Source: a virus
Virus record (IMG/VR): IMGVR_UViG_3300005288_000118
Span: 1 to 20,511 of that record
Length of the DNA stretch: 20,511 nucleotides
Strand: one strand, 5' to 3'
The notes beneath the pieces are model-generated. The model was not told the DNA's origin, did not search any database, and saw only the letters and a list, made by a program, of their open reading frames with translations. How positions within the stretch are numbered: position 1 is the first letter of the stretch; every line of letters starts with the position of its first letter. Shown piece by piece: positions 6,504-16,178 of this stretch. Position numbers and translations under genes: made by a program.

Positions 6504-6947
6504 ATGGAACGCAAGCGCAAGCGTCACTTCAGCGACAAGATGGAAAAGTTCTGTCTTGCCTATGTCGAGACAGCCAACGCCGCCGAGTCCTATCGAATCG
6601 CCTACAACACGGAAAACATGGCCACGGCCACCATTGGCCGCGAAGGCTACAACACTCTGCAGAAGCCCCAGGTTCAAGCCAGGCTCGAAGAATTAAGGAA
6701 GCAGGTCATGGAGCGTCACGAAATCACCGTCGACACTCTTCTGGCCGAGCTGGAAGAGGCGCGCTTGCTGGGAAAGGAAACCGGCAAGGCTTCGGCAATG
6801 GTTACCGCGTCCATGGGCAAAGCAAAGCTTCTGGGCCTGGATAGACAGATTGTTGAGCTCACAGGCAAGGACGGGGCGCCGATTGAAACCAATTCGACGG
6901 TAACGGTTGACCAGAAGGCCTTGAACTCCGTGCTGGGCTGTCTATGA
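6504..6947 (+). CDS. Terminase small subunit
   Basis: 147 residues. It starts at ATG 6504, with AGGTG a few bases upstream. The N-terminal region, about residues 8-75 (FSDKMEKFCLAYVETANAAESYRIAY, in part; then LQKPQVQARLEELRKQ), matches the Terminase_2 small-subunit family. This family binds the packaging site through a helix-turn-helix and recruits the large subunit. The second half holds an acidic helical oligomerisation segment (TLLAELEEARLLGKETGKAS). It overlaps the large subunit start (ATGA at 6944). This is the only junction in the late block with a gap upstream (7 bases), so packaging genes may have an independent ribosome entry. Placement after the tail genes is unusual. Confidence 0.85.
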   Translation: MERKRKRHFSDKMEKFCLAYVETANAAESYRIAYNTENMATATIGREGYNTLQKPQVQARLEELRKQVMERHEITVDTLLAELEEARLLGKETGKASAMVTASMGKAKLLGLDRQIVELTGKDGAPIETNSTVTVDQKALNSVLGCL

Positions 6948-8554
6948 GCAAGCTGCTCGATTGGGATGTAATGAGCAGCGCAGAACGACAAGCAGCAAAA
7001 CTAATTAGCGAGCACTCACCGCTGTCGTTCATGCGCGTCTTTTTCCAGTTGAACCAGGGCATGAAGATGCTCTGCAACTGGCACCACCGCTACATGGACC
7101 ACACGGCCTTGAGGGTGTTGTCTGGCGAATTGAAGAATGTCGTGTTCAACATGCCGCCAGGCGGCACTAAGACTGAATTCTGGTCGATCCACGTGCCTTC
7201 ATACGCCATGACCATGTACGACCGGACGCGCACGCTTAACGTCTCCTACTCCAAGGCCTTGGTCGAAGAGAACTCGAACCGCATCAAGTCGATCATCACC
7301 AGTGATGAGTATCAGGATTTGTGGCCGTGCGACTTGGGAAAGGCCGACGTGGCCAACTGGGTCATCACCGATGAACGCGGGCGCAACAAGCACCAGATCT
7401 TCAGCCGTTCCACCGGCGGGCAGATTACCGGCGTGCGTGGCGGCTATATCTCTGAAGGCTTCACCGGCTTCATCAACCTGGATGACCCGGAGAAGGCCGA
7501 CAGCGCCTTCAGCGCAACCATGCGGGCGAAGGCTCAGCGCATCATCACCAACACCCTGCGCAGCCGGCGGGCCTCACCAGACACCCCCGTCATCTGCACG
7601 CAGCAGCGCCTGCACACGGATGACGTGTCGGGTTTCCTGCTAAAGGGCGGCATGGGGCTGGACTTCGCGCACATCAAGGTGCCTGCCCTGGTCACGCGCG
7701 ACTACATCGCCAGTTTGCCGGACGAGATCCGCGAACACGCCGAGCGTGATGTCTTTTCGGGTCCGTCAATCGTCCGTGGCGGCGTTGAATACTGGTCCTA
7801 CTGGCCCGCCAAGGAAACCGTTGAGGACCTGATGGCGCTGTGGGATCGCGACCCCTACACCATGGTCAGCCAGTACCAGCAAGAGCCGGTAGCCCTGACA
7901 GGCGGCATGATCGACGCCGACTGGTTCAAGACCTACGAGCAGCTTCCCTTCCTGGTCTGGCGCGGCGTGTACGTCGACACCGCACAGAAAACCGGCGAGC
8001 AGCATGACTTTTCCGTTTTCAATCACTGCGGCCTGGGCGTAGACGGAAATCTATACCTTATCGATGTACATCGCGGCAAATGGGACGCAGGCGATCTTGA
8101 GGCTGAAGCCCTGCGCGTGTGGCAAAAGTGGAAGGATTGGGACCAGTTCCGTCCGGCTGCCCTTCGATACATGCGCGTCGAGGACAAATCATCGGGAACC
8201 GGCCTGATCCAGACGATCAGCAAGAAGGGCGCGATACCGATCGAGCCTCAGCCGCGCGGCCCGGCGGCCAACAAGGTAACCCGCTGCATGGATGCTGTTC
8301 CGTGGCTCAAGTCGGGCCGGGTATTCGTGCCGGCCATTTACGACGATCAAGGCCGCAAGATCGAGCACGTCAAGGACCACCGTGGCGAGATTGTTGCTTC
8401 CACGGACTGGGTAACACCGTTTCTCACCGAGGCATCGGCCTTCACCGCCGACGATACCCACGACTTCGACGACCAGGTGGACACCCTGTTCGACGCGGTC
8501 GCCGACATGCTCATCAACGGTAACGGCGACTTCTTCTCCGGCAACTGGCTTTAA
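6944..8554 (+). CDS. Terminase large subunit (ATPase-nuclease)
   Basis: 536 residues, a normal length. The packaging ATPase region holds a Walker A-like NMPPGGTKTE (about residues 69-78), a Walker B-like GFINLDDP (175-182), and CTQQRLHTDD (219-227), which fits the coupling motif. QYQQEP (310-315) is a conserved feature of this terminase branch. The C-terminal RNase H-like nuclease has Asp345 in VYVDTAQKT, Glu413 in RVEDKSSGTG, and acidic HDFDDQVD (507-513), giving the acidic metal-binding set. It pumps phage DNA into the prohead and cuts it. The start is fixed by ATGA overlap with the small subunit. It ends 76 bases before the tailspike gene. Confidence 0.92.
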   Translation: MSKLLDWDVMSSAERQAAKLISEHSPLSFMRVFFQLNQGMKMLCNWHHRYMDHTALRVLSGELKNVVFNMPPGGTKTEFWSIHVPSYAMTMYDRTRTLNVSYSKALVEENSNRIKSIITSDEYQDLWPCDLGKADVANWVITDERGRNKHQIFSRSTGGQITGVRGGYISEGFTGFINLDDPEKADSAFSATMRAKAQRIITNTLRSRRASPDTPVICTQQRLHTDDVSGFLLKGGMGLDFAHIKVPALVTRDYIASLPDEIREHAERDVFSGPSIVRGGVEYWSYWPAKETVEDLMALWDRDPYTMVSQYQQEPVALTGGMIDADWFKTYEQLPFLVWRGVYVDTAQKTGEQHDFSVFNHCGLGVDGNLYLIDVHRGKWDAGDLEAEALRVWQKWKDWDQFRPAALRYMRVEDKSSGTGLIQTISKKGAIPIEPQPRGPAANKVTRCMDAVPWLKSGRVFVPAIYDDQGRKIEHVKDHRGEIVASTDWVTPFLTEASAFTADDTHDFDDQVDTLFDAVADMLINGNGDFFSGNWL

Positions 8555-10699: not shown

Positions 10700-10733
10700 C
10701 TTGGCGAAATCTCAGGGAGCGGGGCGGTATTTC

Positions 10734-12257
10734 GTGCTTTTCAACTCATACACATTTATATTTCTATTCCTGCCAATCTGCCTCATCGCCTACTATGCCG
10801 TCTTTAGATTTGGACCTCGCGCTCAGGTTTCAGTTTTAGCGATTGCGTCTCTCGTTTTTTATTGTGGATGGGATCTCAGGTATCTCCCGCTTCTACTTGG
10901 CTCGGTGTTGTTGAACTTCGTCGCCGGAAGAGCAATCGCTCAGTGCAATAAAAAGTCTAGAATGGCGAAGCTAATCCTTATTTTCGCGATATCCATAAAT
11001 CTGCTGATTCTTGGGTATTATAAATATGCAGATTTCTTTATACAGAATATAAATGCAGCTTTCGGGGCCGATTTTAATGTTCTGCATATCATCCTGCCCT
11101 TAGGTATTTCGTTTTTTACTTTTACCCAGACGGCATTTCTTGTCGATACATATTCTGGAAAGTCAGACGAGCCTAACCTGATTCAGTATCTGGCATTTGT
11201 TACTTACTTCCCCCACCTTATCGCCGGTCCAATTCTCCACCACCATGAGACTATTCCTCAGTTTCAGCGAGGGGCAGCCATTAAAGCCTGCTGGATGGCG
11301 CCAGGGATAGCAATGTTTGCTATAGGCCTTTTTAAAAAGGTCGTGATTGCAGACACTTTTGGCGCAATTGCTAGGACTATTTTTAACTCTTATGCAAGTG
11401 GGGCGCAGACGCTTACTGGAGCCGACGCATGGCTAGGAGCGCTCGCATACACCTTTCAGCTGTATTTTGATTTCTCAGCTTATTGTGATATGGCGGTGGG
11501 TGCATCCCTAATGTTCGGTATCTACATCCCGCTTAACTTTAATTCCCCATACAAAGCCGTAAGTATTATTGACTTTTGGCGTAGATGGCATATGACTCTG
11601 TCGAGATATCTCAGGGATTATCTGTATATCGCGCTTGGTGGTAATCGTCGCGGAAATTACCGAAGGTATCAAAACCTTATTATCACAATGCTTATAGGCG
11701 GGTTGTGGCATGGCGCAGGATGGACCTTCATTATCTGGGGTGGATTGCATGGGCTCTATTTGATCATCAATCACCTTTGGAGAGCTATATCCGGTGGCAA
11801 CAGAGAGACGGCAGTCGGTAGATGGGCTGGCCGATTGCTGACGTTTCTATGCGTGGTCGTCGCATGGGTGTTCTTCAGGTCAGAGTCAGTATCATCAGCT
11901 GTGTCAATGTTGTCCGCTATGGCGTCTGCCCCTCAGTCACTTTCGCCGGCGGTCGCCAAGACAGTATTGGAGATCATGGTTCCCCAGGCACTTATTGATG
12001 CAGGATTTCAGGTATCCGCCAGCTATGTGGCTGCTGCGACCATTTTGATAGGGCTCCTCATAGTCTGGGCTTGTAGAAATGCACAGGAGCTGGTGTTTAA
12101 AAAATCACCTTGGGATTTCCCCCTTGAGCAAGCTCCAGAGCCGGAAGATTGGACCGCCAGAAAGATGTTGCTTCCCTTGTCGAGCGCGGCCTTTCTTGTT
12201 GGGTTGGCGGCATTGATCGCTGCCCCACCAGGTGAATTCCTGTACTTTAATTTTTAA
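10734..12257 (+). CDS. MBOAT-family O-acyltransferase (AlgI-like)
   Basis: 507 residues from the GTG at 10734. That start gives the family-typical beginning LFNSYTFIFLFLP; an in-frame TTG at 10701 would add 11 residues. The protein is multi-pass membrane with many hydrophobic segments. Conserved MBOAT blocks are clear: WRRWHMTLSRYLRDYLYIAL (from about residue 282, followed by GGNRRG) and GGLWHGAGWTFIIWGGLHG, with the presumed catalytic His at about 326. The AlgI/PatA/DltB group moves acyl (acetyl) groups across the inner membrane for attachment to exported polysaccharides. Here it is followed by an SGNH-like partner, as in AlgI-AlgJ/AlgX pairs. Base and codon use is more AT-rich than the flanking phage genes, which suggests later acquisition. 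The likely effect in lysogens is O-acetylation of O-antigen or capsule. The substrate is not known. Confidence 0.9.
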   Translation: MLFNSYTFIFLFLPICLIAYYAVFRFGPRAQVSVLAIASLVFYCGWDLRYLPLLLGSVLLNFVAGRAIAQCNKKSRMAKLILIFAISINLLILGYYKYADFFIQNINAAFGADFNVLHIILPLGISFFTFTQTAFLVDTYSGKSDEPNLIQYLAFVTYFPHLIAGPILHHHETIPQFQRGAAIKACWMAPGIAMFAIGLFKKVVIADTFGAIARTIFNSYASGAQTLTGADAWLGALAYTFQLYFDFSAYCDMAVGASLMFGIYIPLNFNSPYKAVSIIDFWRRWHMTLSRYLRDYLYIALGGNRRGNYRRYQNLIITMLIGGLWHGAGWTFIIWGGLHGLYLIINHLWRAISGGNRETAVGRWAGRLLTFLCVVVAWVFFRSESVSSAVSMLSAMASAPQSLSPAVAKTVLEIMVPQALIDAGFQVSASYVAAATILIGLLIVWACRNAQELVFKKSPWDFPLEQAPEPEDWTARKMLLPLSSAAFLVGLAALIAAPPGEFLYFNF

Positions 12258-12266
12258 GGGTCAAGC

Positions 12267-13301
12267 ATGTCGCCAAGATCATTTGTATTGAGTTTTTGCG
12301 CATTGTCACTGATTACCTTGCTGGCTTATGCGTTCAGCTTTAGTTCGATACTTGGGGCTCCTCTAGCTGCGGAGTACTGGCTACGCGGAACTAGCCTAGT
12401 AAAGCTAAAGCTCGCAAGAGACGTTGAGTCTCCGAAGGTATTGTTTGTTGGCGGATCAAGCACCTTATTCAGTATCGATACCGCGCAACTTAGCATGGCG
12501 ACAGGGAAATCCGCAATCAACATGGGTCTTCATGCCGGGCTGCCTTTGAAGTACCATTTTGATTTCGCTAAGAAGGCGTTAAGGCATGGCGACACTGTTG
12601 TGGTAGTTCCGGAGTATGGATACTACCGACGTGATTTGGCCAACACTGAGTGGTTCATAAATCAGGTTCTAGCGTGGGATGGCGAGTATTACAGAAATGC
12701 TAGCGCAAAAGAAAAAGCTAAATTTATCATCGATACGCCAGGCATGAAGATTGTAGATGCTGTTCTATCTGACATTTTTAGCAAGCGAATCAGAGAGAAA
12801 TTCACTTACAGATACCCCGTGACTGAAGATGAGGCGCTTAAAGTATTTCAGGCTGGGTGGAACAATGTTAGGGCCAAAAACGCCCCTGAGAGAAGAGTTT
12901 TTCAGTACTATTTTAATAATATTAATGATCACGGCGACATCAATAATACCGTCGGCTCTGATTCTCCGAAAACTAGCGGATACGGCTTGATTGAAGGCTT
13001 TGCATTTAATGGTGATGCATTAAGTGAGATTGCTAATTTCAAAGAGTATTGCGATTCTATTGGCGTTAAAATGGTTATGGGTTTTGCTCCGATAATGAAC
13101 GACGGAGTTGTCAAAAATAATATCACTGCGATAACCAAAAACATGGATGGTATAAAGTCTAAGATGACAAGCATGGGGATAATTTTTATCGATAGCCCAG
13201 GTGACGTATTTTTCGATCAGAAATATTTCTTTGATACTGACTCTCACCTGAATATTGACGGCAAGAAATTAAGGTCTCATGACCTCGAAAGAAAAATATA
13301 G
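12267..13301 (+). CDS. SGNH-hydrolase-like membrane-anchored protein, acyltransfer partner
   Basis: 344 residues, with AAGGG six bases before the ATG. An N-terminal hydrophobic segment (about residues 5-25) should act as a signal anchor, leaving the rest in the periplasm. VLFVGGSSTLFSID (58-71) matches block I of SGNH or DltD/AlgX-type proteins, with Ser64 or Ser65 as the candidate nucleophile. FFDTDSHLNIDGKK near the end holds the D-x-H block (Asp325, His327), giving a plausible Ser-Asp-His set. In AlgJ/AlgX and PatB this partner receives the acetyl group from the MBOAT protein and places it on the polysaccharide. It is very AT-rich compared with neighbours and sits between two terminators. 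A plain esterase is the alternative. Confidence 0.7.
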   Translation: MSPRSFVLSFCALSLITLLAYAFSFSSILGAPLAAEYWLRGTSLVKLKLARDVESPKVLFVGGSSTLFSIDTAQLSMATGKSAINMGLHAGLPLKYHFDFAKKALRHGDTVVVVPEYGYYRRDLANTEWFINQVLAWDGEYYRNASAKEKAKFIIDTPGMKIVDAVLSDIFSKRIREKFTYRYPVTEDEALKVFQAGWNNVRAKNAPERRVFQYYFNNINDHGDINNTVGSDSPKTSGYGLIEGFAFNGDALSEIANFKEYCDSIGVKMVMGFAPIMNDGVVKNNITAITKNMDGIKSKMTSMGIIFIDSPGDVFFDQKYFFDTDSHLNIDGKKLRSHDLERKI

Positions 13302-13367: not shown

Positions 13368-13901
13368 ATGCCGATCACCGAGCAGCAGTTGCTGCAGATC
13401 CTCCCGAACGCCGGCCGTAATGCTGGCGTTTTTGTTTCTGCACTGAATACGGCCATGGGCCGTTATGGCATCGTGGGCACAGCGCGCGCGGCGGCGTTCA
13501 TTGCCCAGGTCGGGCACGAGTCCGGCCAGTTGCGCTGGGTGCGCGAGATCTGGGGCCCCACGGCGCAGCAGGCCGGGTACGAAGGCCGCGCGGACCTGGG
13601 CAACACCGTAAAGGGGGATGGCCCCAAGTACCGTGGCCGGGGCCTGATCCAGATCACCGGGCGTGCAAATTACGCGGCCTGTGGCGAGGCGCTGGGCCTG
13701 GACCTCATCGGCAACCCTGAGCTTCTTGAGTTGCCGCAGCATGCGGCGATGTCTGCCGCGTGGTTCTGGTCGACCAAGGGCCTGAACACCCTGGCGGATC
13801 AAGGACAGTTCGTGAAAATAACCCGGCGCATCAATGGTGGGCTCACAGGCCACGCCGACCGCCAGGCGTTGTACGACAAAGCGCTGAAGGTGTTGGCATG
13901 A
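13368..13901 (+). CDS. Endolysin, glycoside hydrolase family 19 type
   Basis: 177 residues. GGAGA lies a few bases upstream of the ATG. FIAQVGHESGQLRWVREIWGP (in part, residues 44-64) holds the family-19 catalytic Glu51 in GHESGQ, and Glu60 is a candidate second acid. KYRGRGLIQITGRANY (from about residue 87) is the other hallmark of phage lysozymes of the chitinase class I fold. It degrades host peptidoglycan to release virions. There is no signal peptide, so it needs a holin or pinholin to cross the inner membrane; none is found nearby. It overlaps Rz (ATGA at 13898). Confidence 0.92.
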   Translation: MPITEQQLLQILPNAGRNAGVFVSALNTAMGRYGIVGTARAAAFIAQVGHESGQLRWVREIWGPTAQQAGYEGRADLGNTVKGDGPKYRGRGLIQITGRANYAACGEALGLDLIGNPELLELPQHAAMSAAWFWSTKGLNTLADQGQFVKITRRINGGLTGHADRQALYDKALKVLA

Positions 13902-14413
13902 CGCCGGTGCAGAAACTGGCCGGACTGGCGGTGCTTATTCTGGTGCTGATGGCGTGCGCCTCGGGCGCGACCTGGCAGGTGCAGGAGTGGCGCTACGGGA
14001 AGCGGCTGGCGGAGCAGGCCGGCCTGCACCAGTCCGACCTGGACAAGATCAGCAGCGCGGCCGCGGCCCAGGTCCAGGAGGAGCAGGACAAGCACCTGGC
14101 CCTGGAGCAGCGCCTGTCAGCCAGCGAACAATCCCACTACAAGGAACTGAGCGATGCTCAAACCACTCAAGATCGCCTGCGCGATCGCCTTGCCACTGCT
14201 GATGTCCGGCTGTCAGTCCTCCTTGCCGAGGATCCAGCCAGTTGCAACGCAGTGCCTGCCACCTCCGGCGCCGTCGGCGTGGTTCATGGAGCCCGTCGAG
14301 CCCAACTTGACCCATCGCATGCTCAAAGAATTGTCTCCATCACCGACGCCGGCGATCGGGGGTTGATCGCGCTGAAGGCATGTCAGGCTTATGTGCGCGA
14401 GTTGAATAAATAG
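13898..14413 (+). CDS. Rz-like i-spanin
   Basis: 171 residues from the ATG at 13898 (ATGA overlap with the endolysin stop). An in-frame ATG at 13760 lies inside the endolysin and is rejected. Residues about 6-24 form a single N-terminal membrane anchor. A periplasmic helical region follows (KISSAAAAQVQEEQDKHLAL, onward to about residue 100), the classic Rz layout. It joins inner and outer membranes with Rz1 in the last step of lysis. The complete Rz1 gene is nested in another frame. The sequence is not close to lambda Rz, so identity rests on topology, location and the nested lipoprotein. Confidence 0.85.
   Translation: MTPVQKLAGLAVLILVLMACASGATWQVQEWRYGKRLAEQAGLHQSDLDKISSAAAAQVQEEQDKHLALEQRLSASEQSHYKELSDAQTTQDRLRDRLATADVRLSVLLAEDPASCNAVPATSGAVGVVHGARRAQLDPSHAQRIVSITDAGDRGLIALKACQAYVRELNK
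14154..14366 (+). CDS. Rz1-like o-spanin lipoprotein (nested in Rz)
   Basis: 70 residues, wholly inside Rz in the +1 frame, as in lambda-type lysis cassettes. The N-terminus KPLKIACAIALPLLMSGC is a lipoprotein signal with the lipobox LMSGC, so Cys20 should be lipidated. The mature part is short and rich in proline (CLPPPAPS; later SPSPTP), the usual Rz1 property. It is anchored in the outer membrane and binds Rz. It would be missed by annotation that forbids nested genes. Confidence 0.85.
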   Translation: MLKPLKIACAIALPLLMSGCQSSLPRIQPVATQCLPPPAPSAWFMEPVEPNLTHRMLKELSPSPTPAIGG

Positions 14414-14530
14414 GGATTGTGTTCGGTCGGCAGGACGCCGGAGGCAGGTTGCTGAAAAGTCGCTGAGGCATGGATTTATTCACATTAACCCACAACGACT
14501 TTCAGCGACATTCGATACTCCAGATACAGC

Positions 14531-14553
14531 GAAGCCCGCACTGGGCGGGCTTC
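14531..14553. terminator. Hairpin terminator between lysis genes and att core
   Basis: A perfect 9-bp stem GAAGCCCGC / GCGGGCTTC with a 5-base loop (ACTGG), between the Rz stop and the att core. Only a weak T-rich tail follows on the + strand. It may stop late transcription from the left, and integrase transcription coming from the right. Confidence 0.55.
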
Positions 14554-14567
14554 TCTGGGTCTTGAAG

Positions 14568-14595
14568 TGGTGGAGCCGGGGGGATTTGAACCCCC
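14568..14595 (-). other. tmRNA/tRNA 3'-end fragment (att core)
   Basis: Read on the minus strand this is a complete tRNA-type 3' end: T stem GGGGG, T loop TTCAAAT, CCCCC, acceptor strand CGGCTCC, then ACCA. The acceptor strand can pair with GGGGCCG, the 5' end known for tmRNA (ssrA) in gammaproteobacteria, so ssrA is the best guess for the bacterial attachment gene. There is no tRNA body beyond the T arm on the right, so this is a fragment and not a working gene. Phages that integrate at a tRNA or tmRNA carry such a piece to restore the host gene. Confidence 0.75.
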
Positions 14596-14661
14596 GTTCT
14601 CTATGCGTATTTATTGGTCGAAACGGTAAGAGTTGCTGAAATGCTGCTGAACTCATAGGTT

Positions 14662-15834
14662 TTATCCTTGTTTCGAGAGAGGGATCTGAACCGGCGTCCC
14701 GAACTTTTCAACAGCTTTATCGCCGGATGTATCGTTCTCGGTTGGAATCCATCGGCCGTAGACCCTGGCGATCATCGTCCAGTCTTTGTGGCCCATCTGT
14801 TTTGCTACCCACATCGGGTGCTCGCCGGCCGACAGCATCATGGATGCATAGGTGTGCCGGGTCTGGTACGGGTTGCGGTATCGGACCTTCGCCTTCCTGA
14901 GCGTCGGTATCCAGAAGCTTTTGCGAATGGCCTGGTCGCCATCAAATGGCTTGCCGTATCGCGAGTCATGGAAAATCGCGCCACCTTCTATATAGGTGTG
15001 CACCTTCTGCGCCTTCAATGCTTCCAGTGCCATTGGCAAAAGCTTCACGCTCCGAATGCCCGCCGCCGTCTTCGGCAACTCCGCTTCCTTGGCCGCCCTG
15101 GTCAGTCCTCGCGATATTCGAATTTCCCCCCGTAACCAGTCCACATCCCCCCATTCAACTGCAATGAGCTCGCTAGTCCGCAGTCCGGTCCACATGGCGA
15201 ACTGCAGCAGGTTCCGATACTGCCCGTCGGTGCCGGCCAAAATCAACCGCTGCTCCTCAGGCGAGAACGGGTCGATCTCGTCTTCGGTCTTTGGCTTCTC
15301 CCTGACCGAGTACGTCCAGCCCGCCAGCGGGTTGACCTCGATCAGTTCGTCATGCACTGCATCGTTGAGCGCTGACCTGAGGCAACTCTGCACGTTCGAC
15401 AGGCGCTTGTTCGATGCGTCCATGCTCGCCATCGCCTCCTTAATCATCTTCCGGCTGAGCATCACCAGGGGGTGGTGCCCGAGCTTTGGCACCAGAACCC
15501 CGTCGATGATCTTCCGGTATCCGTCGATAGTGCTGGCCTTCAGGGTCTTCTCTTTCTTATCCCGCCAGCTTTCGAGGTATTTCGATAGCGGGACTTGCCC
15601 GGTCTGGTATCCAAGCCGCTGGGCGCGCTTGGACTTGGGGAAGGTGGCGAGATAATCAAACGTGCCGTTGTAAATCGCCAGTTCAATAGCCGCCTTGTGC
15701 TGCTCGGCCCGCTTCAGGTTAGCGGGGCTGGGCTCAAGTGGGATGCGCTCGCGGCACTGGGCACCCTCGAACATGAAACTGATCTCAATGCTACTTTTCG
15801 ACGCCGCCCTGACGCCGCTGCGCTTTCCACCCAT
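14662..15834 (-). CDS. Tyrosine-type site-specific integrase
   Basis: 390 residues. The N-terminus (MGGKRSGVRAASKSSIEISF; then CRERIPLEPSPANLKRA) is the DUF3596-type arm DNA-binding domain, and the start fits that family. A core-binding domain follows at about residues 80-175. The catalytic domain shows Arg219 (WTGLRTSEL), Lys255 (LPKTAAGIRS), Arg326 (YQTRHTYAS), His349 (MGHKD) and the nucleophile Tyr359 (ARVYGRWI). Position 323, usually His in the HxxR box, is Tyr. The 3' end points at the att core 70 bases away. It recombines attP with the host site. It overlaps the excisionase gene by about 120 bases in another frame. Confidence 0.93.
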   Translation of the reverse strand: MGGKRSGVRAASKSSIEISFMFEGAQCRERIPLEPSPANLKRAEQHKAAIELAIYNGTFDYLATFPKSKRAQRLGYQTGQVPLSKYLESWRDKKEKTLKASTIDGYRKIIDGVLVPKLGHHPLVMLSRKMIKEAMASMDASNKRLSNVQSCLRSALNDAVHDELIEVNPLAGWTYSVREKPKTEDEIDPFSPEEQRLILAGTDGQYRNLLQFAMWTGLRTSELIAVEWGDVDWLRGEIRISRGLTRAAKEAELPKTAAGIRSVKLLPMALEALKAQKVHTYIEGGAIFHDSRYGKPFDGDQAIRKSFWIPTLRKAKVRYRNPYQTRHTYASMMLSAGEHPMWVAKQMGHKDWTMIARVYGRWIPTENDTSGDKAVEKFGTPVQIPLSKQG

Positions 15835-15992
15835 GCCGCATACCCGTCCACATCTATAAGGGGTTTATTGTCAGGCGCATGTCGCCACACGAGGCCCTTG
15901 GGCCACGTGCCGTCCTGAATCTTTGATCTGATCGCGGCCTCAGTGTAGCCACTTTCGGCGGCGAACTGACTGATCGTCTTATATTTGACCAT
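15714..15992 (-). CDS. Excisionase-like protein
   Basis: 92 residues. The first 55 (KTISQFAAESGYTEAAIRSK, then DGTWPKGLVWRHAPDNKPLI and a closing YAAWVES) match the DUF1233-type putative excisionase family, a small winged-helix DNA binder that directs the integrase toward excision. GGAGG precedes the start by about nine bases. The last 40 residues are encoded in the overlap with the integrase start and are low-complexity and basic, so they may add little. The start directly follows the stop of the preceding gene (TGAATG), so expression is coupled with the upstream small gene and the integrase. Confidence 0.75.
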   Translation of the reverse strand: MVKYKTISQFAAESGYTEAAIRSKIQDGTWPKGLVWRHAPDNKPLIDVDGYAAWVESAAASGRRRKVALRSVSCSRVPSAASASHLSPAPLT

Positions 15993-16178
15993 TCACTGCT
16001 TCCTCCAGGCCTCGCGCTGCGCCTTGTTCCAGCCGTCAATCCACCGCTGCTTGGAGCATGGAGACGTGTCTTTTTCCGTTTCGAACGGGTTTTGCTTGAG
16101 GCCAGCTCCCTTGAGGAAGGCCGCGTAGCCCTGCTCGAACGGGTTGATCTTCTGGCCGTGCAGCTCAGCAGTTGCCAT
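15993..16178 (-). CDS. Ribosome-modulation-factor-like small protein
   Basis: 61 residues. FEQGYAAFLKGAGLKQNPFE and KQRWIDGWNKAQREAW reproduce the spacing of the RMF family (G-Y-x-A, a G/NP turn, then R-W-x-x-G-W-x-x-A), although the insert between the two halves is longer than in RMF itself. RMF inactivates ribosomes by dimerisation. Related small proteins occur on phages and plasmids; the plasmid protein CrpP belongs to this family. Whether this one binds ribosomes is not known. It overlaps the preceding gene by 14 bases and abuts the excisionase start, so it is in the early leftward operon. Confidence 0.5.
   Translation of the reverse strand: MATAELHGQKINPFEQGYAAFLKGAGLKQNPFETEKDTSPCSKQRWIDGWNKAQREAWRKQ

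Follow-up and report, generated by a model that had tools for sequence, protein, structure and literature searches.

The DNA analysed here (the window) is a linear virus record of 20,511 bp, truncated at both ends, with its left end inside an open frame. Two genes of a lysis module, both on the plus strand, lie to the left of the site under study: one for a GH19 endolysin (13368-13901; Pfam/PHROG-type family matches) and one for an Rz-like spanin (13898-14413; also from family matches). To the right, on the minus strand, is a tyrosine integrase gene, int (14662-15834), whose product combines an Arm-DNA-bind_2 domain with a Phage_integrase catalytic domain (Pfam, 2.3e-19 and 1.8e-13) and matches the phrog_1 integrase family. 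The original prediction had likewise placed lysis genes on the left and an integrase on the right. An excisionase-like gene (15714-15992, minus strand; phrog_9668 excisionase, 2.1e-23) shares about 120 bp with the start of int, an overlap retained in relatives. The offset between the two gene starts, 158 bp, is identical in most of the relatives that have both genes.

Between the spanin and int lies a 29-nt core (14568-14596, minus strand; CGGGGGTTCAAATCCCCCCGGCTCCACCA), which copies the 3' end of the tmRNA gene, ssrA, from the T-arm to the CCA. It is adjoined by an integrase with both an arm-binding and a catalytic domain, as expected for the attP of a tyrosine integrase. A complete tRNA or tmRNA gene is ruled out by ARAGORN and by Rfam at the gathering threshold, neither of which reports one in the window; this is expected since the core is a 3'-end fragment. 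Scanning the surroundings of the site for promoters gave no hit.

The remainder of the window shows some features of its own. The genes for the small and large terminase subunits (6504-8554) follow a tail-fibre gene and precede the tailspike-like and lysis genes, an order that looks unusual. Just before the endolysin gene, a segment of low GC content (10701-13301; 47%) holds an MBOAT O-acyltransferase gene (Pfam, 8.8e-36) followed by an ORF of 344 amino acids with no family match. Relatives differ in gene content between the tail genes and attP. Acyl_transf_3 acyltransferases occupy this interval in three of them (L009:6464-7600, L002:11918-12958 and L064:3049-4200), and GDSL-type hydrolases are found in others. 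The MBOAT gene and its neighbour could form a module for lysogenic, surface-modifying conversion, and the position of such genes near attP resembles that in serotype-converting phages (PMC7326022).

The core and its match to ssrA

Of the 149 Pseudomonas species sampled, 142 contain the exact 29-mer, nearly all of them in a single copy. A chance match is ruled out by shuffled windows, in which the best match to the core reaches only 17-19 of the 29 positions. The full ssrA genes of three genomes tested score 195-206 bits with the Rfam tmRNA model, and each ends in the core sequence. Identity between core and ssrA thus extends over 29 nt and terminates at the CCA, which is the end of the gene. 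The original prediction had recognised a tRNA/tmRNA 3' end with CCA and suggested ssrA as the host target, and the comparison with Pseudomonas ssrA genes upholds both; the core is longer by one base than the 28 that it had given.

The ssrA gene of P. duriflava reads CGCCTCC in place of CGGCTCC, and the same one-base variant occurs in the core copy on the int side in that genome. In two relatives from IMG/VR (L004 and L006), identity with ssrA covers only 26 nt, TGGTGGAGCCGGGGGGATTTGAACCC in the orientation of the window, so the crossover should fall within this stretch. In the phage record OQ658364, the label 'attR' refers to a 17-bp repeat inside the same 30-bp sequence.

Repeats and a hairpin in the arms

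The core is flanked by three tandem pairs of 10-11-bp repeats close to TTGCTGAAAAG. The first pair lies on the lysis side in direct orientation (14449-14466, plus strand; TTGCTGAAAAG and TCGCTGA), 119 and 108 bp from the core. The second, also on the lysis side, is inverted (14493-14508, minus strand), with a spacing of 10 bp and a degenerate second half-site. The third lies on the integrase side (14633-14650, plus strand; TTGCTGAAATG and CTGCTGA). A repeat finder detects the direct copies as 14448-14466 and 14632-14650, identical at 16 of 19 positions. These are the imperfect 19-bp repeats and the third, inverted copy that had been pointed out from the sequence.

Two half-sites spaced 11 bp apart are found, in the whole window, only at the two direct-repeat sites. 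The pattern never occurs in 2000 shuffles of the region and has a mean of 0.01 in shuffles of the whole window, although the regular expression that defines it was composed after the sites had been seen. For this reason, conservation at fixed positions in relatives is the better evidence. Relative to the core start, half-sites at -119/-108 (direct), -67 (inverted) and +65/+76 (direct) are common to the window and to L003, L002, L006, L008 and L014. The position of the direct pair on the lysis side is kept within 1 bp in the seven closest attP relatives. The pattern is also kept in phage MR15 and in L009, with a weaker outer half-site on the right; the left half-sites are shifted by one base in L009 and lie nearer the core in L011. 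The repeats have the conserved anatomy of integrase arm sites, the role originally proposed for them, and may be bound by the N-terminal domain of the integrase.

The phage arm beside the core also carries a hairpin (14531-14553, minus strand) that resembles a host ssrA terminator. A terminator scan around the site did not pick it up; its matches, at 14577-14596, correspond to the T-arm of the tmRNA. The block 14520-14552 is identical at 27 of 33 positions to the downstream flank of ssrA in a genome of the P. brassicacearum clade (G052), and its distance from the core is almost the same. Alignment scores of the block against G052, G138 and P. brassicacearum 38D7 are 21-22, while shuffles give at most 12. 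At that place, the ssrA terminator of most other Pseudomonas examined is unrelated. A 33-nt pattern, built from both the phage and the host sequences, has its only mismatch-free hits at the ssrA flank of G052, G138 and 38D7. The hairpin alone is generic, with 2-6 copies per genome in seven Pseudomonas genomes tested, and a merely generic hairpin is only partly excluded as the rival to capture of the terminator. Capture of the host ssrA terminator by the phage is plausible from these alignments. The broader proposal, that the phage took up the ssrA 3' end along with the terminator and provides the lysogen with the two, thereby preserving or altering 3'-end formation of the tmRNA or the termination of its transcription, is tentative and rather doubtful.

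Integrated, empty and free forms of the site

An integrated relative is found in P. brassicacearum 38D7 (L031; genome G001, contig C475), the only match when 149 Pseudomonas genomes were searched with the pattern of core plus arms. Its integrase is 94% identical to that of the window. A full ssrA gene lies at 57474-57870 of the contig and a second copy of the core at 15617, 41,857 bp apart. On the lysis side, a homologue of the endolysin gene and the left arm pairs adjoin the full ssrA. The other core copy adjoins int and the right arm pair, which is retained (L063), and host DNA lies beyond. This prophage thus has a regenerated gene at one end and a displaced fragment at the other. Conversely, when the two host flanks of 38D7 are joined (567 nt), the resulting sequence is present uninterrupted in G052 at 91% identity, which represents the empty attB.

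Free phages provide the third form. MR13 and MR15 (MT104473 and MT104475) carry an undivided site, 82.8% identical to that of the window over 231 bp, and their integrases are 82.5% identical to that of the window. MR15, which was isolated as an infectious phage of P. syringae pv. syringae (PMC11167607), has the same gene order, endolysin, attP and int, but an extra 1.9 kb or so of genes separates its lysis genes from attP. Its record bears no attP label in the stretch examined. Six relatives from IMG/VR (L002, L003, L006, L008, L009 and L014) share the left arms of the window and resemble an attP. Beyond the core, L007 has the terminator found after ssrA in many Pseudomonas and L004 a host-like terminator, so that both of these look like int-side junctions.

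Comparison of the integrated 38D7 form, the empty site and MR13/MR15 with the layout of the window indicates that its site is undivided, as the original prediction had it. The site very probably serves as attP for a temperate, tailed phage of Pseudomonas whose integration target is the ssrA 3' end. It is hardly credible that the contig is a chimera assembled by way of the short conserved core: the 29-nt sequence is indeed common to almost all Pseudomonas, but MR15, L003 and L009 have both arms, the core and int in collinear order as a single conserved unit. Moreover, L009 aligns without interruption to 14408-16178 of the window, across the whole site and int, and the base composition does not change abruptly at this point.

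One point against the attP explanation comes from P. duriflava (L068:7500-7770; G003:C21, core at 27738), in which arm-like inverted repeats are also found on the far side of the int-side core, where they possibly belong to a second element. In other Pseudomonas, the ssrA 3' end is duplicated 28-40 kb apart (G089:C29:50221 and 78154; G108:C203:85653 and 125160), or ssrA is separated by about 44 kb from the flank that usually follows it (G140:C20:2335 and 46984). These arrangements are probably due to further elements at ssrA.

The physical state of the source is a separate matter. When attP recombines with attL or attR, the result is a pair of tandem prophages with an attP-type junction between them. 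The internal junction of two such phages in tandem at ssrA would look identical to attP, and the source would then be a lysogen rather than a free phage. ssrA loci do appear to collect several elements, judging from ORFs that by their sequence alone resemble other integrases, just past the displaced core in L005 and L007. However, this arrangement requires two prophages of the same type, and the undivided site is likewise present in MR13 and MR15, which are isolated phages; we regard it as unlikely. The window is a linear piece of 20.5 kb, cut off at either end, in which neither circularity nor a lack of flanking host DNA would be visible; this is a second point against the attP explanation. 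The unintegrated phage is the simpler reading and hence the likeliest, so that the original suggestion of an unintegrated or circularised source stands as the most probable state, one that shares its junction with a tandem double lysogen.

An unintegrated source genome would have been replicating, circularised or packaged. For integration itself, the following scheme can be proposed. The catalytic domain of the integrase would carry out the exchange between the phage core and the ssrA end, while its N-terminal domain would bridge to the three arm-site pairs. Upon integration, the phage core would restore an intact tmRNA gene at the lysis end of the prophage, and int would come to lie next to the ssrA fragment displaced from the host. 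The product of the excisionase-like gene may promote excision, thereby restoring attP.

Such an arrangement is ordinary and well known. The prophages and islands of the Islander class that reside in tRNA and tmRNA genes (PMC4383910) share the tyrosine integrase, the 3'-end target, the gene regenerated at one end and the displaced fragment at the other, with no essential difference from the site in the window, which would be a new member of these elements. The P. aeruginosa phage YA3 also has an attP that copies the 3' end of a structural RNA gene and an acyltransferase gene near it, but its target is a tRNA-Ser gene and it is a phage of another type (PMC7326022).

A single short window can thus be resolved to an attP through the integrated, empty and isolated-phage forms of the site, and a virus fragment gains an assigned host genus, Pseudomonas, together with its exact integration target. 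A phage-borne ssrA terminator, if true, would bear on the way in which a conserved RNA gene survives integration intact.
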